DNA of 64,000 nt, from the NCBI RefSeq assembly GCF_001719125.1, contig NZ_CP017006.1, positions 1,736,001-1,800,000 on the forward strand. The letters run 5' to 3'. Source of the DNA: Sulfolobus sp. A20. Lineage in GTDB: Archaea; Thermoproteota; Thermoprotei_A; Sulfolobales; Sulfolobaceae. The notes under the pieces were generated by a model. That model was not told the origin of the DNA, searched no databases, and worked only from the letters and a program-made list of their open reading frames with translations. How positions within the stretch are numbered: the stretch's first letter is position 1; the number at the start of each line of letters is the position of its first letter. Positions 31,357 to 41,500 of the stretch are shown here, in pieces. The translations under genes and the position numbers were made by a program.

Positions 31357-33606
31357 TTATTTCTTACTTAAAATGACCTTTAAGATCTCTTCTGGTGTAG
31401 TGGGAGTTTTGGTAAATCTCGCTCCAACAGCATCTTCTAACGCACGAATGATAGCCGCAGGACCTACAATTAGCGCAGCTTCGCCAACACCTTTACTACC
31501 TGTCGGATAATTGGATGTATGATACTGTTCAGCAAAGATTGATGTAAACTTGGGAGATTCCACTGCTGTAGGAACATAATAATCAGCATAGCTTACTATT
31601 AACTGACCGTTTTCATTAAGTATAGCTTGTTCATATAAAGCTTGACCGACTGCTTGTACACCTCCCCCGTGGATTTGTGACTCCGCTAAGGCAGGATTAA
31701 TTACTTTCCCTATATCATCATAAGCTCTGTATTCCACTACTCTAGCTATTCCGGTTTCATCTACTTCAACTACAGCTACATGAACACCATATGGAAAAGT
31801 GACGTCATTCTCATAGATCAGTTTTTCTACTAAACCAGGTTCATGACTTCTGTAAGCTAAATTAGCTACATCATCCCAGCTCATCTTCTTACTTGGATCA
31901 CTCCTCAATTTGAATTCTCCTTTTTCGTATTGAACCTCTTGAACATCTACGTTCCAAGTAGACGCAGCTATTCTCTTCATTTTATCTAGTATCTTCTCGG
32001 CAGCTTTTAACGCTGCGGAACCACCTATTGTTACTGATCTTGAGCCATAAGTTCCCATGCTGGCAGGTACTGCATCGGTATCTCCCCAAATAACTCTTAT
32101 CCTTTCGATTGGTATTTGGAAGGCATCAGCTACTAACTGGGCGATTGCAGTTTCAGTACCTTGCCCATGTGGTGTAGTGCCGGTTACTATTAAAACGTCT
32201 CCTCTTTCATCTACTCTGACTTCTGCATACTCCCAAGGACCAAAACTGCACACCTCTAAGTAAAACGCTAATCCTACACCTACCCTGTGTCCTTTTCTCC
32301 TCTCTTCTTCAGCCCATTTCTTCAATTCATAATATTGCAGCCTTTTTACGCCTTCTTTTAATGCTCCAACATAGTCTCCAGAATCATATCTCATTCCAAA
32401 TGGATTTGTATAAGGTAGTTCTGTCACTAGGTTCTTCTCTCTAACAGTAACGTCATCTAAGCCTAATTCGTCTGCTACAGTACTCATTATCCTCTCGATT
32501 ATGTAAGTAGCCTCTGGTCTACTAGCTCCCCTATACATAGTTATAGGTGGAGTATTAGTATATACTGCAACACTCTCTAGACTTAAATTACGTATTTTAT
32601 ATGGTCCAGGTATCATCATTGGTATTATTAATGGCTGTATGCCTGCAGTTACTGTTATGTATGCCCCTAAATCTAAGAGTAGTTTGCCTCTAATACCTAA
32701 TATTGTCCCATCTTTCTTAACTGCGACTTCTCCCTTGAATATATTATGCCTCGCCTCACTAGCTAACATCTCTTCGGTTCTTGTTGCAGTCCACCTAATT
32801 GGCCTCCCGAGAATAATTGATGATGCAACTACAGCTAACTCCTCTGGCATTAAGTGTACCTTACTACCGAAAGCTCCTCCTACATCTGGCATTGAAACTT
32901 TTATCTTACTTTCTGGTATACCAAAGATCCTAGAGAACTCTAAGCGCATGAAGTGAGGAACTTGAGTAGAGTACCATACACTTAACGTTCCTCCTTCATA
33001 TCTAGATATTATACCTCTAGGTTCCATAGGGTTTGGAATTAATCTTTCGTTTATCGCCTCAACATTAACTACCTTATCTGCTTCATTAAATGCCTTTTCT
33101 ACTTCTCCCGCTTTGAACGGTATCTTGTATGAAATATTAGTCTTCAACTCATCATGTACTATGACCTGATCCTTCTCAGCCTCTTCCATTTTAGTTACTG
33201 CCTTAATAGGTTCATAATCCACTACCACTTTATCGATAGCATCTCTAACAGCATATTTATCTTGTCCTATCACAACCGCTACAGGTTCTCCTATATACTT
33301 TACTTTATTTTCTGGGAAAGCTTTTCTTTCAACATATCTAAAAGCTTTAAGGTCAATATACGTAGGCCAGGGTCTTATACCTCCTTTCAATAATGGATTT
33401 ATTTCTTTTGCTGTTAGAACAGCTACAATTCCATTGACTTTTAAGGCATCACTAACATCTATTCTTTTAATATAGGCGTGTGGATATGTACTTCTTACGA
33501 AGCCAGCGTATAATGCTGGTATTCTTATATCATCTACATAATTACTCCTTCCGGTTATGAATTTTTCGTCATATAATCTTTTAACCGATTTTCCGACATA
33601 ACTCAT
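31357..33606 (-). CDS. Molybdenum aldehyde oxidoreductase, large subunit (xanthine dehydrogenase family)
   Basis: 749 residues, a full-length CutA/CoxL-type large subunit. The molybdopterin regions include GGAFGSK (near 244) and [12 protein letters not shown] (near 355), the latter matching aldehyde-oxidase-like rather than CODH form-I (AYRCSFR) sequences. The catalytic Glu is in [13 protein letters not shown] near the C terminus. It oxidises an aldehyde to the acid. In Sulfolobus the comparable enzyme acts on glyceraldehyde in sugar breakdown. Operon order is medium, small, large subunit, with overlaps of 1 and 4 bases. Confidence 0.9.
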
Positions 33607-34094
33607 GCTCTCAACCTCTTGGACGCATCTATTACCGCCCTAATTATATTTTGATAACCGGTACATCTGCAAATATTCCCATGTAAACCATCCCTTATTT
33701 CTTCTTCCGATGGATTAGGATTTTGCTTTAGTAAAAAGTATGTTTGCATTATCATTCCAGAAGTACAGAAACCACATTGTAAAGCAAAATTATCTCTGAA
33801 TGCTTCTTGAATTGGATGTAATTTAGAATCGACTGATAAGCCTTCAATAGTAGTGATTTCAGAACCATCAGCCTGGACAGCAAAAATTGTGCAAGATTTA
33901 ACTGACTTACCATCAAGTAATACTGTACAAGCCCCACAAGTAGTAGTATCACATCCAACCTTTGTTCCGGTTAGACCTAGCTCATCCCTAATGAAGTCCA
34001 CTAACAACATCCTAGGACTAACATACCTTTCATACCAAACCCCATTAACCTTAACTCTAACCTTAACTTTGTCTCCCTTGTTAACGACTTGCAT
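33603..34094 (-). CDS. Aldehyde oxidoreductase small subunit, two 2Fe-2S clusters
   Basis: 163 residues. The plant-ferredoxin-like cluster has [15 protein letters not shown] and the helical-domain cluster has CGFCTSGM and CRCTGYQNI. This is the complete set for the xanthine dehydrogenase family. It passes electrons from the molybdenum centre to the FAD subunit. It is encoded between the medium and large subunits. Confidence 0.94.
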
Positions 34095-34942
34095 CAGCCC
34101 ATCACCTCCTTTAAAGCCTTTCTAGTTATAACCTTCATAACTTCCTTCCTATACCACGAACTCCCTCTAGTATCAGAGGGGGGATTAACTTGACTAGAAA
34201 CCTTACTTACTATGTCCTCTATTAAAGAATCATCTAATGACTTACCTATTGCACCTTTTTCTACTTCTATTGGCCTAAACGGTTTATCGGAAACTCCAGC
34301 ATACGCTAATCTAATATCCTCTATATCCCTTCCTTTCATTTTGATTGCTAAAGCTAAAGATACCAATGCATAGTCTCCAGCCCTTCTCACAACTTTCTTG
34401 TAAGTCGTATAATAACCCTCTAAATTAGGTAATACTATTTCTGTTATCAGTTCTCCCTTCTTTACATCAGTAGTGAAAGCTCCCTTAAAGAAATCTAAAG
34501 CCTTAACTGACCTACTACCAGAAGAAGATGTGAGGACTATTTCAGCGTCTAGAGCTGTTAAAACAGTAGGAACGTCTGAAGAAGGATCAGCGTTTCCTAC
34601 ACTACCTCCTATAGTTCCTAAATTCCTCACTTGCATATCTCCAACTAATCTAACTGCCTGATATAAGAGAGGAACGTTTATCTTTATAGTATCATTCTTA
34701 AGTACTTCATAGTATCTGGTTAAGGCTCCAATTTTAGTTGAATTAAAACCACTTCTAACGTAACTAAGGTCTTTAATTGGGTTCAGATCAACTATGTAAT
34801 TAGGTGAAATTACACGAAGTTTTAACATGGGTATTAAACTTTGACCGCCAGCTAAGGGTCTGGCATCGTCTTGCGAATCCAAAAATTTTGTTGCCTCATC
34901 CACACTATTTACACGCACATATGTAAAATCTGGTGGGTACAC
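34094..34942 (-). CDS. Aldehyde oxidoreductase medium subunit (FAD binding)
   Basis: 282 residues with the FAD-binding signatures [12 protein letters not shown] (near 31) and [14 protein letters not shown] (near 108), then a CO-dehydrogenase flavoprotein C-terminal domain. First gene of the operon. The ATG lies about 27 bases from a good TATA box (forward 34964-34974), so the message is leaderless. Confidence 0.93.
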
Positions 34943-35155: not shown

Positions 35156-36550
35156 TCATCTTATCTTGAATTGTCTCAATACATTATTCCTATGAATAAA
35201 TTTAGTAATGGTTGATGGTACAATCACGTTTCCCTCTCCTTTTCCAATAACTTTACCAATAATGTAGGGTTCGTAGCCTTTAGACTTCAACTCATCATAT
35301 AAATCTTCTATTACTTTTTTATGAGCAAAGATTACTATAGCACCATTAGTGCCAGCAGTTGAATTTGGAATAATGAAGTTCTCAGTTGCGAATTCATGAA
35401 TATCAGGATCTAAGACGGGAATTTCAGTTAATTCTACATCTACTTGAGCCTTTTGGGCGAATTCCTTTATAACAAATAACCCTGGTCCAGTAACGTCGGT
35501 AGTCATAGCTATATGAGACTCTTCTTCAAAAGGATGCCCAAAATTAGGTAAGTATTCGTAAATGATTTTAGCCACTTCAATGTTGGGAACTCTCATGAAG
35601 TTTATGGCTTTCTTTTTAACCTCTTCAACCCTACTTATTGTTATTCCCTTCTCTTCTAGGTTTTCTATCAGCTCTGGTACCGTAAGTAGCCACATATAAA
35701 CGTTAATTGGAGTTAACTCTCCCACTGGTCTAGTAACTAATATTTCCATCTTCTCATTAACCTTGTTATAGAATGTTGGCAGTTCATGATCCGATTTCCC
35801 TATAGTCGTAGCTCCTATCATTAATGTCTTAGTACTGGGTTGTATATCATCTAATAATTCGATGGAATATTTCCTAGAATAATTAATAAAATTGTTGAGT
35901 AACTGGGTCTTTAACTCATCGATTGGAGCATCAGCTACTGGAATCATCTTCAAATCTTGAAATACACCTTTCGTAAATAAGTCATTAAACGAATTAGACA
36001 CTCCCACATCGACTTGCATTTGTGAACCTGGATCATCTAAGGGATCGACAATTTGAATTGTATCATTATTAGCAACCGTGTATGATTTCTCTTTTTCTCC
36101 ATCAAGTCTGAATAAATCTAGTACAGCAACTTCTCCTTTAGGATTAGTAGTTACAATTGAGTGCCCTTTTCCTATAGTTAATTTCCTAGAGGTTTTGATT
36201 GAAGTATAGACTCTTATTAAGAAATCAGCGAATTTCTCTGGACTTCCTGCAGTTTCTTGGTTTACTTGAATTAAGCTTATTGCTCTGTCGGCATCAAATT
36301 CTCCAGAATTTATCACTCTTTTTACTGTGATATTTTTTCTTGTTACAAAAATATCGGCATCTTCTCTTGGTAATATTTCAATATTTCTTTTAGCCAACTC
36401 TGAATTGATTTTCCCTAAAGCCGGATAGACTGTATCTATTAAGTCAACTTTAACTGCACAACCAGTTGCTAGAGATAAAGGGTTCAATCCCATTTTTTTA
36501 TACTTTTCTAGGTTCTCTCTAAACTTATCAATTAATTTATCAATAGACAT
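35156..36550 (-). CDS. SelD-like / AIR-synthase-related protein
   Basis: 464 residues from the ATG at 36550 (an in-frame TTG precedes it). The N terminus has '[11 protein letters not shown]', matching the selenophosphate-synthetase motif GxGCxCK with the first Cys and the Lys kept and the second Cys replaced by Val. Downstream are an AIR-synthase-like N domain and a C-terminal domain ('[15 protein letters not shown]'). ATP-dependent phosphoryl transfer is likely, but Sulfolobales do not make selenocysteine, so the substrate is probably not selenide. The sulfur-relay genes beside it suggest a sulfur compound (inference). Confidence 0.75.
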
Positions 36551-36693
36551 CAAGTACTAGTTTATCTTTAACGGGGTTAAAAACTTTCCCGATAAATTTT
36601 TAACAGATATCATATCTATTATTATAAATAAAAATAGTTTAGAAAACACAAAATTCCGACATACTTATATTCTTGATGTGTAAGGCATAGATT

Positions 36694-37110
36694 GTGACCC
36701 AAATAACTGAGAGGAGAACTCCATATTATGCTAACATCCAAAGTGTTCCGCCATCCATAGTTAGAAGACTTATTAAAAGTAATGCTATTAAAATAATTGA
36801 TATAAGACAGCCTTGGGAATACGAAGATCATCACATACCTGGATCAGTATTGATACCTTTAGACTATATTGATGATTTATTACCACTATTCCTTACCAAA
36901 ATTAACACTAACTCATTCGCAATAGTATGTGAACATGCTAATAGATCTACTTGGTTAATATTTAATAAACCTTATCTCTTTGAGGGATATAAGGTTTACA
37001 ACATGCTAGGTGGGATGGAGTTATGGATTAGAATGGGATACGAGGTAGATAAGGGTATAGATGATAATGGCACTTTATGGTATAAGCTACTTTTAGGAAA
37101 GACTAAATAA
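36694..37110 (+). CDS. Rhodanese-domain protein
   Basis: 138 residues from a GTG lying about 26 bases after a TATA-like stretch near 36667. Single rhodanese domain: 'IDIRQPWEYEDHHIPGSVLIP' and active-site loop CEHANRS with Cys near 86. It would carry persulfide sulfur. It is divergent from the SelD-like gene (144-base shared promoter region) and upstream of a winged-helix regulator, at the edge of the sulfur-relay cluster. Confidence 0.88.
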   Translation: MTQITERRTPYYANIQSVPPSIVRRLIKSNAIKIIDIRQPWEYEDHHIPGSVLIPLDYIDDLLPLFLTKINTNSFAIVCEHANRSTWLIFNKPYLFEGYKVYNMLGGMELWIRMGYEVDKGIDDNGTLWYKLLLGKTK

Positions 37111-37183
37111 AAGACAAGTTATTTATTACATATTCTTTGCACTTATCGATAGTCTTAAAAAAGACGTAATAAAAATAAAATTG

Positions 37184-37420
37184 ATGGAGAGACTACCCCC
37201 GTCTGCTAAACTCGTATTAAAGATACTACTGGAAAAGAAAGTTGTAAGATTTAAGGAACTGAGAGAGGAAACCCATTTACCTACTAGAACGTTACATTAT
37301 GCCCTAAAGATTCTTAAAGAAAAAGGAGTTGTAAAAACGTTACCTTGCCTAGATGATGCCAGAGAAAGAATATATTCACTTTTAGAAGTTGAAGAATGCT
37401 ACAAACTTTTTAATGACTAA
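37184..37420 (+). CDS. Small winged-helix regulator (MarR/ArsR-like)
   Basis: 78 residues from ATG 37184; a TTG directly before is possible. HTH: 'VVRFKELREETHLPTRTLHYALKILKEKGVV' (residues 20-50). Two cysteines (CLDD and EECYK) could sense redox or sulfur state, but that is speculation. It lies 73 bases after the rhodanese gene and overlaps the convergent gene by 4 bases. Confidence 0.8.
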   Translation: MERLPPSAKLVLKILLEKKVVRFKELREETHLPTRTLHYALKILKEKGVVKTLPCLDDARERIYSLLEVEECYKLFND

Positions 37421-37767
37421 TATTCCATTTCCTCAGCATACATTTCCTCATCTAGTTCTTCTTTTACATTCTTCTTTATCTCCTCTAAGTGTTCAAGAAC
37501 TTCTTTTAAATTATTATAACCGGTAGGCATATATTTCAATCTACCGTATGACATCATATAAGAACCTGGGCATAAGAATTTTTGCCTTACAACTATAGCA
37601 TCGGCGTTTAAATCTAGAATAACTGCCATTGTTGCCTCCTTGCTACCTATACCAGGATTCTCGTACTGTTCTACTTCTTTCTTCTCCTCATCTATAATTC
37701 CTATAATTTCTGCCTGATCTAGAGGTTTTAATTCTTGATTTCTATCGTACGTTAAAGCTATTCTCAT
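37417..37767 (-). CDS. NifX/NifB-like (dinitrogenase Fe-Mo cofactor biosynthesis fold) protein
   Basis: 116 residues from ATG 37767, with GTGA five bases upstream; GTG 37776 is the alternative. The strand-helix pattern (MRIALTYDR, 'AEIIGIIDEEKKEVE', 'ATMAVILDLNADAIVVRQ', CPGS, 'YNNLKEVLEHLEEI') resembles the NifX/NifB/MTH1175 fold. It ends with a very acidic tail. In non-nitrogen-fixers such proteins bind Fe-S or metal clusters. Beside DsrE/TusA/SQR-like genes it may handle a sulfur or metal-sulfur intermediate (inference). Confidence 0.6.
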   Translation of the reverse strand: MRIALTYDRNQELKPLDQAEIIGIIDEEKKEVEQYENPGIGSKEATMAVILDLNADAIVVRQKFLCPGSYMMSYGRLKYMPTGYNNLKEVLEHLEEIKKNVKEELDEEMYAEEMEY

Positions 37768-37834
37768 AGGTTTCACTCTTTCATCTTTCTCTTAAATATT
37801 TTGTGATCAACATATTTAGAAAAATTAGGAAAAA

Positions 37835-38959
37835 TTATCTTGGTGTGAACTCTTTGCCTATAGCTCTAACTAGAGTAAATAAAACCCCTAGTCCTCTCTG
37901 AACTTCTGGATCTGATAATAATCTGATTAGACCACCTATAGAAACTTGAGGAGGGGATTCCAAACTCTTTTTAACTTCTTCTGACGTCATAGCCCTCATT
38001 ATCTTGTAAGGCACTTCACTAAACGTGTATTCCAGAAAGTCCATAGCCTTAGGATAGACTTCCAGAAATTGTGAAACATATTCTGATATGTGAGTAATAG
38101 CTTCATCATTTAACATATCCCTTAAAGTCTTAGCAGCATATGCTAAGTTTAGTACTACATCTAAAGCTCCGTTGTTATTTAATTCTTCAACTTTTTCTAA
38201 TACGTCGTTCACTAAGTTTAATCTCTTCATAGCCCTCTTTATTGAATGTATTGTTGTGTCATCCATTTCCTTCATGATTTCAAGAAGATTGGAAACATAT
38301 TTGCCTAGGTTTTGTATAGCGTCATCATTCAACATATCTCGCATTGTCTTACCAATATAAGCATAATTAACTAAAACATCTAATGTACCATCACTCTTCA
38401 TTTGCTCTAACCTATTAATTAAGTCTGAAATCGTTGAAGACTTTTCTAATACCTGCTTTAATGGATCTAAATGATTACTAACTACCTTTAATAGTTCTAG
38501 TGAGCCAGAGAGTGTACTTGCTATAGTTTGAATAGCTTCGTCATTTAACATGTCTTTCATGGTTTTAAGAGTGTACGAGGCATTAACTAGAACATCTAAA
38601 GTTCCATCATCCTTCATCATCTTTACCTTATCCAAAACATCAGATAAAGTGCTCATATTATGAATGACTTTCATCGTATCATGAAAGACTTCAGGCTGTG
38701 AAATAACCTTACCTACTTCAAGAAGGGATGAGGTAATTGTGCCTAGGTTTTGTATAGCGTCATCATTCAACATATCTCGCATTGTCTTACCAATATAAGC
38801 ATAATTAACTAAAACATCAAGAGCCCCGGACTCTTTCAGCTCATTGACTTTCTTTAGGACTTCATTTAAGGCAGGAGTCAGATCAATAAGCTCAGCTAAT
38901 TCTTCTATCTTCTTCTCATCAATCTTTGATGCTAACTTCTCTAAGTTGATGACTTGCAT
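37835..38959 (-). CDS. DUF1641 repeat protein
   Basis: 374 residues from ATG 38959 (GTG 38968 is possible). It contains four copies of a roughly 75-residue helical unit centred on 'G(A/T)LDVLVNxAY..KTM(R/K)DMLND(D/E)AI', then a C-terminal region. Copies 1 and 3 are identical over 26 codons because of a 79-bp perfect DNA repeat. No membrane helices. DUF1641 proteins accompany formate dehydrogenase or Hdr/SQR-like genes. Here the protein follows DsrE and SQR-like genes in one operon. A scaffold role is an inference from the repeats. Confidence 0.8.
38302..38380 (-). repeat. 79-bp perfect direct repeat, copy A (inside DUF1641 gene)
   Basis: Identical base for base to 38740-38818. It encodes the conserved core of the third protein repeat. 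The identity ends abruptly at both edges. Confidence 0.9.
38740..38818 (-). repeat. 79-bp perfect direct repeat, copy B (inside DUF1641 gene)
   Basis: Same sequence as 38302-38380, 438 bases away in the same reading frame; encodes the core of the first protein repeat. Confidence 0.9.
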
Positions 38960-38961
38960 AT

Positions 38962-39342
38962 TTACCACACCGAGACTATTTGTCCTCCTTCCACATCCAT
39001 TGCAAATGTAGTTATACCGGCTATCTCATCAATTAAATCTATGTAATCCTCCTTAGCATAGTTGAACAATTTACTTGCATAGGAACAAGCGTAAATCTTA
39101 ACTTTTCCACTCTTCTTTGCTTTCCTAAATAAGCCTATATAATCCTCTTCTTTTTTCTCCACCATAGTCTTAGATGACATATCTTCAGTTTTTACCTCGG
39201 GGTTCTTGGTAAAAGCTCTAACTGCATCCATAGTTAAAAAAACATAAACTTCATCTCCCATTGATGATATAATCACCGATGTCATTGCAGCATAAGCTAA
39301 TCTCGACCTCTCATTAGAGCCCACTATTATACCAGTCTTCAT
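38962..39342 (-). CDS. DsrE-family sulfurtransferase
   Basis: 126 residues. DsrE/DsrF-like alpha/beta fold, starting '[22 protein letters not shown]' style, with Cys in '[12 protein letters not shown]' at the usual active-site position. It lies between SQR-like and DUF1641 genes in a tight operon (spacings of about 1 base). It probably passes persulfide sulfur with the TusA encoded upstream. Confidence 0.85.
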
Positions 39343-39343
39343 T

Positions 39344-40501
39344 TCACACCACAGCTTTTGCTGTAACAGTCCAATACATCTTATTGTACATTATTTTACC
39401 CCACCAGTGCACGTAAGAAGGTGGTGGTGGGCTTTCATTCATAGTATAACTAAATCTAATATACGTAGCTTGGTCAGTTCCAGTGGCTATATAACATAAT
39501 ACGTCTCCGCCATAGTGCTTTACACCTAAGTTACCCTTAATGTCATTAGCGATATTATGGGCTACAGTGTAAGATTCAAAGTCTGCTGTTGAACCAGCTT
39601 TTGACACTGGCAAATCTGTTGCATCACCCATTACATAAACGTTAGAGTGATCTTTCATTCTAAGTGTAAATTTATCAGTTGGTATCCATCTTCTTCTATC
39701 ACCAATTCCAGAATCTCCTATTACCTTAGCTCCCATGTTAGGAGGTATCCCTATTAATAAGTCATACTTAATTTTTTCACCTTCTTGGGACTCTATTATC
39801 TTCTCTGACGGATTAACACTTGTTACGGTAAATGGGGAGTGAACCTCTATCCCTCTTTCCTCAAATAACTTTAACATGAACTTATTAGTTATTGGTCTAC
39901 CGAATACTCCTTGTACTGGATAAGTATAGATAATTTTCGTCTTATCCCTAATTCCTCTCTTTCTTAAATAATCATCTAGAATTAGAGTATTCTCTAAAGG
40001 TGCTACAGGACATCTGTGAGGAAGCCTAGCAGTATTTACTACTACCGTTCCCCCTTGGAACTTCTCTATTGCCTCTCTCATTTTTACAGCATCATCGTAT
40101 TCATAAAATGAAACTGATCCTGCCCTATAACCGGGAATCTCATCCCACGTGTATTCTACACCCGTAGTAATCACTAAATAGTCATAACTATGGGATACAC
40201 CATCTGCTGTAACAACAGTATGGTTCGCAGGATCTATTTTCGTTATTGTACCTTTCTCCCCATGTATAAACTTAACACTAGAGTCTAATAGTTCACTTTC
40301 TTTCTTTACCAGTTCGCCCGGTGTCTCTAATCCATAAGCCACTAACAATTGACCAGGTAAGTATATATGTTCGTCAGTTTTATTAAGAACAACTAGTTCT
40401 ACCTCTCCTTTATGAATTTCATGATGTAATTTCTGAGCTAGTCTATTCGCTATTATCGTACCGCCTATATTTCCTCCTGCAATTATAATCCTTTTAGCCA
40501 T
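39344..40501 (-). CDS. FAD-dependent sulfide:quinone oxidoreductase-like protein
   Basis: 385 residues. N-terminal Rossmann motif GGNIGG, second nucleotide motif 'VMGDATDLP' near 300. Cys in HRCPVAP (near 163) and Cys in '[12 protein letters not shown]' (near 340) sit where SQR has its two redox cysteines. The C-terminal membrane-binding helices of true SQR are not obvious. It could oxidise sulfide or a protein persulfide. It is encoded between TusA and DsrE, so a role in protein-bound sulfur oxidation is plausible. Confidence 0.85.
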
Positions 40502-40511
40502 TCCATTTCAC

Positions 40512-40745
40512 CTATTTCGAAACTAATAAAATGTATTTGTTACCTTCTTGTGATTCTTGAACAATCTTCACGCCTCTTTTCTTTGCCCATAATGTAATAT
40601 CCTTCTTAGTTGCTTCATCTCCTAGAATAACTTTAACAGCTTCACCTTCTCTTAACTCATCAATAACACTAGAGAGTTCTCCAATAGGCCCAGCGCATGA
40701 TGAACTTGTTAGATCTAATTCTTTATATATCTTTAAGGAGCTCAT
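40512..40745 (-). CDS. TusA/SirA-type sulfur carrier
   Basis: 77 residues. 'LDLTSSSCAGPIGELSSVIDEL' carries the TusA Cys with Gly-Pro following (CAGP instead of the classical CPxP). The rest fits the two-layer TusA fold. First gene of the TusA - SQR-like - DsrE - DUF1641 operon. A TATA-like box (forward about 40762-40770) lies near leaderless spacing. It would receive and donate persulfide sulfur. Confidence 0.88.
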   Translation of the reverse strand: MSSLKIYKELDLTSSSCAGPIGELSSVIDELREGEAVKVILGDEATKKDITLWAKKRGVKIVQESQEGNKYILLVSK

Positions 40746-41137
40746 TTTTCCAATCCCTAATATTATATATTACTTAGTTGTTTTTAAATATTACGTTTTC
40801 ATCAAGAATATATATATTGGAGAATATTATTATTTAATTTAGTTTTATCTAAATATATATCCCAATAACAATAAAAGTATATTTAAACTGTTTGTATCTT
40901 AAACTATTGCTCATTACTGAAAAATTTTTAAAATATCATTTACAAAACTTTTTGAGTCCTTTGAATTATAGATTTGCAACTCCATATCTATTCAAGAGTT
41001 AAGTGTAGTTTTCACATGACTTATTGGAAATAGATCTCTAATTTTAATTTGAGCTTTCTAATATTTTCTATAATAATACACGGTGGGCAAGATTTTGGGA
41101 AAACTTTATATATAAGTAAGGCAGAAGATGATGCACT
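40746..41137. promoter_or_regulatory. Divergent promoter region between TusA and DsrE genes
   Basis: 392 bases, very AT-rich, no ORF. A good TATA box (tttatata, 41105-41112) lies about 29 bases before the DsrE ATG at 41138. On the minus strand a TATA-like box at about 40762-40770 serves the TusA gene. I see no clear operator in the remainder. Confidence 0.55.
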
Positions 41138-41500
41138 ATGAGTAAGTTATTATTCATAATACTTAATGATCCAAGTAATCTTGCGGAATCTATTAAAGCT
41201 GCACATACGTTACACTATGCTGTAGAATTAAAAGAGAAGGGTCATGAAGTTTACGTTTACTTTGATGGTTTAGGCACTAAAATTCCTATAAGTGACAGTC
41301 CTTACAAGGGATTAAAACCGGCTTACGAACGTGCGTTACAAAAAGGAATAATCTTAGGAGCTTGTGGATATTGTGCCTCTCCCCCTCACCTTAACATAAA
41401 GGATAAATTACCAAAAAGTATTCAGTTAATCGGCGATGAAGAACATCATTACGCCTTTACAGACTTAGTCGACAAGGGTTTTCAAATAATAATATCATAA
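41138..41500 (+). CDS. DsrE-family sulfurtransferase
   Basis: 120 residues of DsrE fold, with two Cys in 'LGACGYCASPP' (near residues 73-77) where the family has its active Cys. It is divergent from the TusA operon, from which it may receive sulfur. The leaderless promoter is well placed. Distinct from the other DsrE at 38962 (low similarity). Confidence 0.86.
   Translation: MSKLLFIILNDPSNLAESIKAAHTLHYAVELKEKGHEVYVYFDGLGTKIPISDSPYKGLKPAYERALQKGIILGACGYCASPPHLNIKDKLPKSIQLIGDEEHHYAFTDLVDKGFQIIIS

Follow-up and report, generated by a model that had tools for sequence, protein, structure and literature searches.

A SelD-like protein beside a TusA-SQR-DsrE-DUF1641 gene set in Sulfolobus sp. A20 is a candidate ATP-dependent sulfur activator with recurrent partner genes across archaea

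We analyzed a 64,000-nucleotide stretch of the Sulfolobus sp. A20 genome (NZ_CP017006.1, 1,736,001-1,800,000; hereafter the window, with gene coordinates given as positions within it), in which a SelD-like protein is encoded on the minus strand at 35156-36553 close to a set of sulfur genes. In our preferred reading, to which we assign a probability of roughly 45%, the locus combines two adjacent sulfur modules: a persulfide unit made up of TusA, SQR-like, DsrE and DUF1641 genes, and a SelD-like protein that would activate sulfur in an ATP-dependent manner, most likely to a thiophosphate-type product. The core of this finding is an independent rediscovery, since Li et al. (2014, PMC4210487) described the SelD-like family, with its SelD residues, in Sulfolobales and Thermoproteales, reported SirA-like (TusA), Prx-like (DsrE) and rhodanese neighbors and, for Thermoproteales, fusion to an acylphosphatase, and suggested that the family synthesizes thiophosphate, an account restated in a 2022 review (PMC9312934). 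An earlier note on this DNA had suspected an undescribed pathway, which is wrong for the SelD-like family itself; its suggestion of ATP-driven sulfur activation through a thiophosphate-like intermediate is reasonable, being backed by the SelD-fold model, the invariant residues and the linkage to TusA, but had already been published in 2014. The useful addition of the present work is the wider operon logic of the SelD-like protein.

The SelD-like protein scored 734.6 bits over residues 10-464 with NF038049 (SelD_rel_HyperS, "SelD-related putative sulfur metabolism protein"), for which the cut-off is 250. Its scores were far lower with the SelD model TIGR00476 (13.1, with 125 needed) and with PRK14105 (50.4 against 291), both under the cut-off, and with the HypE model TIGR02124 (21.8, with 251.6 needed). 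Where the earlier note had recognized the first Cys and the Lys of the SelD motif, the whole C-x-x-K is in fact kept (T-G-C32-A-V-K35), together with an aligned set of metal-binding Asp residues. C32, K35, D146, D164, N187, D191 and D353 were invariant in 36 SelD-like homologs from many families. Compared with E. coli SelD (sequence taken from NC_000913.3), C32 and K35 align directly with C17 and K20, N187 and D191 with N87 and D91, and D353 with D227, while D146 and D164 would correspond to D51 and D68 on the basis of hairpin spacing, in a region where the automatic alignment is gapped.

The AlphaFold model of the SelD-like protein (pLDDT 92.8) predicts a SelD fold. Its best matches among solved structures were selenophosphate synthetases, with 3fd6_B giving a VIA Z of 28.6 over 320 aligned residues (root-mean-square deviation 3.0, 18% identity) and Foldseek returning 3fd5_B at 2e-17; the next folds were HypE (Z 24.0), the ThiL type (21.4) and the PurM type (19.6). 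Relative to SelD/SEPHS (E. coli 3u0o, A. aeolicus 2yye and human SEPHS1 3fd5), the protein shares the fold as judged from its predicted model, the C-x-x-K motif and the aligned metal-binding Asp and Asn residues, but differs in its low identity (16-19%), its score far under the SelD cut-off and an extra segment of ~100 residues. This segment (residues 36-142; 36128-36448, minus strand) separates the Cys/Lys loop from the ATP-binding hairpin and is absent from E. coli SelD; when folded alone, at a middling confidence (pLDDT 84.6), it had no match in the PDB.

Most genes neighboring the SelD-like gene encode sulfur enzymes. We compared 83 distinct SelD-like loci, drawn from 40 neighborhoods and a genome-wide scan; because they share ancestry, their linkage counts do not represent independent events. 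A same-strand TusA gene was the immediate neighbor (≤60 bp away, often with a 4-bp overlap) at 44/83 loci, lying upstream in 35 and downstream in 9, and the CPxP motif was present in all 44 of these TusA proteins. When the distance was extended to 500 bp, TusA accompanied the SelD-like gene at 59/83 loci. Since only a few TusA genes occur among the roughly 1,500-3,000 genes of each genome, such adjacency would be expected by chance at well under 1%. An acylphosphatase was fused to the SelD-like protein at 19 loci and encoded by the next gene at another 25, and a YedE-type transporter lay within 3 kb at 21/83, commonly in the order YedE-TusA-SelD-like-acylphosphatase. Three Cys residues were conserved among the YedE-type transporters (in 18, 22 and 21 of 22). 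CysO, found within 3 kb at 7/83 loci and in both orientations, is homologous to the crystallized archaeal cysteine synthase 1wkv (E 7.6e-73), which we take to be the Aeropyrum O-phosphoserine sulfhydrylase. Two-domain rhodaneses were located near the SelD-like gene in Thaumarchaeota. The partner genes were constant while their order and orientation varied among loci.

Two features of these neighborhoods are recorded here as separate observations. Many SelD-adjacent TusA proteins (L061-L088) carry a second motif with an extra Cys, DNPPSCENVP, for which the Thaumarchaeota copies have DHLPST or DHMPST without Cys. At four marine thaumarchaeal loci (L190, L191, L194 and L200), YedE, TusA and a two-domain rhodanese belong to a long conserved neighborhood that also contains several unidentified families.

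SelD-like genes were detected in 46/299 Thermoproteota genomes, and a further scan recovered them from marine and groundwater Thaumarchaeota, Nitrososphaerales, Baldrarchaeota, Geothermarchaeota and metagenome-assembled genomes (MAGs) labelled Euryarchaeota; a copy in a single MAG labelled Marinimicrobia (L212) probably reflects contamination. The family also occurs outside hyperthermophiles and so extends beyond the published picture. The window protein shares with the NF038049 family of Li et al. its membership, the Cys/Lys and Asp set, the TusA, DsrE and rhodanese neighbors and the thiophosphate proposal, but that paper restricts the family to hyperthermophilic sulfur reducers of the Sulfolobales and Thermoproteales and gives only the fused acylphosphatase, whereas our loci include marine and groundwater Thaumarchaeota and other MAGs, stand-alone acylphosphatases, the YedE-type transporter and CysO. 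The carriers that are not hyperthermophiles weaken the published explanation by sulfur respiration. Across the Thermoproteota genomes, CysO occurred in 22/46 SelD-like carriers versus 52/253 non-carriers, a weaker association than that of the molybdenum hydroxylases considered below, and strict co-occurrence was observed with neither. Since CysO is common without the SelD-like gene, a cysteine role of the SelD-like protein would not be universal. One group with genomes of 2.7-3.2 Mb (L084, L085 and L086) has a more distant SelD-like family, scoring 236-267 bits with NF038049, that is encoded divergently beside CysH and ATP sulfurylase; its C-x-x-K is degraded to GCSNE, DCSNE or NFSNE, so these proteins are unlikely to use SelD chemistry.

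The SelD chemistry residues are retained, and we considered whether the SelD-like protein might synthesize selenophosphate for some unrecognized use of selenium, with its YedE-type transporter and YedF-like TusA forming a divergent version of the bacterial YedE-YedF-SelD selenium set (PMC5322559). The operons are indeed parallel, in that the same three kinds of genes adjoin in several archaeal lineages, and the best NCBIfam matches of the SelD-like neighbors carry selenium names. However, the archaeal loci have the SelD-like protein in place of SelD, a TusA lacking the DsrE domain of YedF and an additional acylphosphatase, and they score under the YedE and YedF cut-offs. Thiosulfate is also served by homologs of this transporter/TusA pair, since the YeeE (TsuA)-YeeD (TsuB) pair, which has been characterized in bacteria, takes up thiosulfate and cleaves it (PMC11073785); the archaeal operons share with it a YeeE-like transporter with three conserved Cys beside a CPxP TusA but add the SelD-like protein and acylphosphatase, and A20 is without a close YeeE/YedE homolog. 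In addition, none of the three selenium-trait markers searched for, SecS, MnmH (SelU) and YqeB, exceeded its cut-off in 10 SelD-like carriers including A20, while control genomes were positive; the bacterial SelA, SelB and YqeC were not part of this search. The lack of any match to these markers in A20 fits the earlier note's description of an organism without selenoproteins. Together with the sulfur enzymes (rhodanese, CysO and Sat) that stand beside the SelD-like gene in many lineages and the score of only 13 of the 125 needed with TIGR00476, these results make the selenium explanation unlikely. We infer that sulfur is the substrate, well ahead of selenium though not proven.

We also examined the co-occurrence of the SelD-like gene with the other window genes over 41 related genomes. 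The TusA-SQR-DUF1641 genes and the NifX-like gene were near-universal in Sulfolobaceae, with close homologs of the window SQR in 24/25 genomes. One genus (g3; G008, G017 and G024) lacks the SelD-like gene but still carries SQR, TusA, DUF1641 and NifX-like genes. The SQR set adjoins the SelD-like gene in three genera. In the window and in L050 and L051, three genes separate DUF1641 from the SelD-like gene, while in two further Sulfolobaceae genera (L056, L058 and L059) TusA-SQR-(DsrE)-DUF1641 runs directly into it on one strand. Since the SQR set is kept without the SelD-like gene in one genus and adjoins it in three others, the two are joinable neighbors and not a fixed pathway. The most regular neighbor of the SelD-like gene in Sulfolobaceae was the rhodanese.

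These data bear on the view, implied by the earlier note, that all nine genes of the stretch act together in one sulfur-oxidation pathway. The contiguous single-strand arrangement in L056, L058 and L059 speaks for it, as do SQR-DUF1641 genes located 6-9 kb from the SelD-like gene in L070, L072, L073 and L076. Nevertheless, TusA, SQR, DUF1641 and NifX-like genes persist in the genus without the SelD-like gene, in most other families the SelD-like gene stands beside TusA and acylphosphatase with no SQR or DUF1641 adjoining, and in A20 the parts of the stretch lie on separate strands, so that a single nine-gene pathway is quite unlikely. The co-occurrence across archaea, which the note had proposed as a check, was seen for TusA, which is linked to the SelD-like gene in many lineages, but DUF1641 and NifX-like genes generally do not follow it outside Sulfolobaceae. 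The NifX-like gene, present in 25/25 Sulfolobaceae genomes searched regardless of the SelD-like gene, was ruled out as part of the SelD-like system. The single genome without a close SQR homolog, G019, retains the SelD-like gene and contains at ~178985-179323 of its contig C3 a decayed TusA-SQR-DUF1641 remnant with an in-frame stop in TusA and a fragment of DUF1641.

Downstream of the SelD-like gene and on the same strand, the window encodes the alpha, gamma and beta subunits of a glyceraldehyde dehydrogenase, a molybdenum hydroxylase (31357-34942, minus strand). One could accordingly imagine that the sulfur activated by the SelD-like protein becomes the terminal sulfido ligand in such enzymes. 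In L053, as in the window's genus, the glyceraldehyde dehydrogenase genes follow immediately downstream of the SelD-like gene, another molybdenum hydroxylase gene adjoins it in L052, L066 and L067, and molybdenum hydroxylases were enriched in SelD-like carriers (31/46 versus 53/253); in bacteria, orphan SelD goes with selenium-dependent molybdenum hydroxylases (PMC2276186). We nonetheless regard this role as very unlikely, since the molybdenum hydroxylase family PF02738 was absent from 15/46 carriers, genomes of the genus without the SelD-like gene (G008 and G017) encode 5-6 of these enzymes, and the enrichment is confounded by lineage. The molybdenum hydroxylase genes found beside the SelD-like gene differ by Sulfolobaceae genus, also in orientation. 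Finally, a HypE-like dehydratase acting with the acylphosphatase on carbamoyl- or acyl-phosphate, and not on inorganic sulfur, would account for the fused or adjacent acylphosphatase at 44/83 loci (HypF carries such a domain) and for HypE being the next-best fold, but it is likewise very unlikely given that HypE acts through a C-terminal Cys while the sole Cys of the SelD-like protein is C32 in the SelD position, that TIGR02124 gave 21.8 of 251.6 and that SelD structures matched better than HypE.

In the two-module scheme that we favor, the SQR-like flavoprotein of the Sulfolobaceae unit would, judging from the families involved, oxidize sulfide or a thiol to a persulfide or polysulfide, which the DsrE and TusA carriers would then receive. 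The TusA persulfide could be charged from thiosulfate via the transporter or rhodanese or, in Sulfolobaceae, from SQR and DsrE. A TusA-family persulfide would hand its sulfur to the C32 site of the SelD-like protein, which with Mg-ATP may form a thiophosphate-type donor (ATP + HS- + H2O -> SPO3 + AMP + Pi) that could be used to make cysteine or further thiolated compounds. The sulfur substrate, TusA donor, thiophosphate product and its destination are those that we infer here; thiophosphate as an inorganic donor of sulfur is not, to our knowledge, an established metabolic intermediate. A transcriptional response may exist, as sqr-alt, aphC, sirA and hypE are among the sulfur-responsive genes of PMC11323534 (mBio 2024) and may correspond to this locus, although the text of that study contains no locus tags against which the match could be checked.

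Several points weigh against this scheme. TusA and the SelD-like gene do not share an operon in A20, and the A20 genome has no close YedE homolog (best E 2e-9). The putative match of D146 and D164 to E. coli SelD is a reading of a low-identity alignment and predicted strands. The transporters and SelD-adjacent TusA proteins scored best with selenium-named models, albeit below the cut-off (122 of 350 for YedE and 68 of 79 for YedF), and 52 of the 74 genomes with CysO lack the SelD-like gene. The shared descent of the 83 loci tempers the linkage counts, and our literature search found no paper assaying an enzyme of the SelD-like family.

All nine open reading frames that the earlier note had listed at 35156-41500 are present, and library searches upheld most of their family labels; the NifX-like label had no library support and the match of the second DsrE was weak. 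On the minus strand, a TusA family carrier (40512-40745; PF01206, 8.6e-16) is followed by the SQR/FCSD-like flavoprotein (39344-40501; FCSD_central/Pyr_redox), a DsrE family sulfur carrier (38962-39342; PF02635, 5e-13) and, as the last gene of the unit, a repeat-rich DUF1641 protein (37835-38968; PF07849, 4e-16), with gaps of 10, 1 and -7 bp. The NifX-like gene (37417-37776, minus strand), labelled by eye only, lies 58 bp further. Its 119-aa product had no significant match in Pfam, NCBIfam or PDB sequences, and its family has one conserved Cys (FLCPGSYM). On the plus strand, opposite to the TusA-SQR-DsrE-DUF1641 unit, a single-domain rhodanese (36694-37110; PF00581, 3.8e-13) is followed by a small winged-helix protein (37181-37420; PF13412, 5e-5) whose 3' end overlaps the convergent NifX-like gene. 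The SelD-like gene is divergent from the rhodanese gene, with 140 bp between them, and forms its own transcription unit in A20; its listed start is TTG, and the next codon, an ATG at 36550, is the likelier start. The second DsrE-like protein (41138-41500, plus strand; PF02635, E 0.07) belongs to a separate unit. The description of the stretch as one dense cluster thus holds for the tight TusA-SQR-DsrE-DUF1641 genes but not for the rhodanese and winged-helix genes on the other strand or for the separate, divergent SelD-like unit. A scan with a bacterial sigma-70 promoter model yielded fewer sites than in shuffled sequence, as expected since the host is an archaeon; TATA-like stretches were visible by eye upstream of the SelD-like, TusA and NifX-like genes.

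The earlier note had described several of these proteins as having active cysteines; cysteines are present in the window sulfur proteins, while DUF1641 has no Cys at all. C32 is the only Cys of the SelD-like protein. The SQR-like protein has C164 and C336 and no others, a putative redox pair by analogy with FCSD; its nearest NCBIfam model was NF049943 (type III SQR), an exception-level selenoprotein model, at 347.6 bits and under the cut-off of 525. DsrE and the rhodanese have one Cys each, the latter within CEHANRS, and the second DsrE-like protein has CGYC. The single Cys of the window TusA lies within CAGP in place of the usual CPxP. The A20 genome also encodes, at two sites far apart, a pair of identical TusA proteins of the CPGP type (200667-200876, L222:4668-4877; 1475493-1475702, L223:5494-5703), and several sister genomes hold near-identical second copies of the window TusA. 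Like the DsrE3A-DsrE2B-TusA-Hdr trafficking system of Metallosphaera cuprina (PMC4175335), the window set belongs to a sulfur cluster of the Sulfolobales that contains both DsrE and TusA, but here they stand with SQR and DUF1641, there are no Hdr genes and the TusA is of the CAGP type.

The YedE/TusA/SelD-like/acylphosphatase operon may, as a tentative and rather doubtful extension, represent a widespread archaeal route in which a thiosulfate-type compound is imported and activated with ATP to thiophosphate, which would supply sulfur for making cysteine and for further thiolations in hyperthermophiles as well as mesophilic marine archaea. The loci with this compact gene order are better experimental systems than Sulfolobus, and the naming of a concrete partner set for the SelD-like protein, namely a touching TusA, an acylphosphatase, a YedE-type transporter and CysO, sharpens tests of its chemistry. 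If the SelD-like protein does make thiophosphate, sulfur would gain a counterpart of selenophosphate, a donor in which it is activated by binding to phosphorus.

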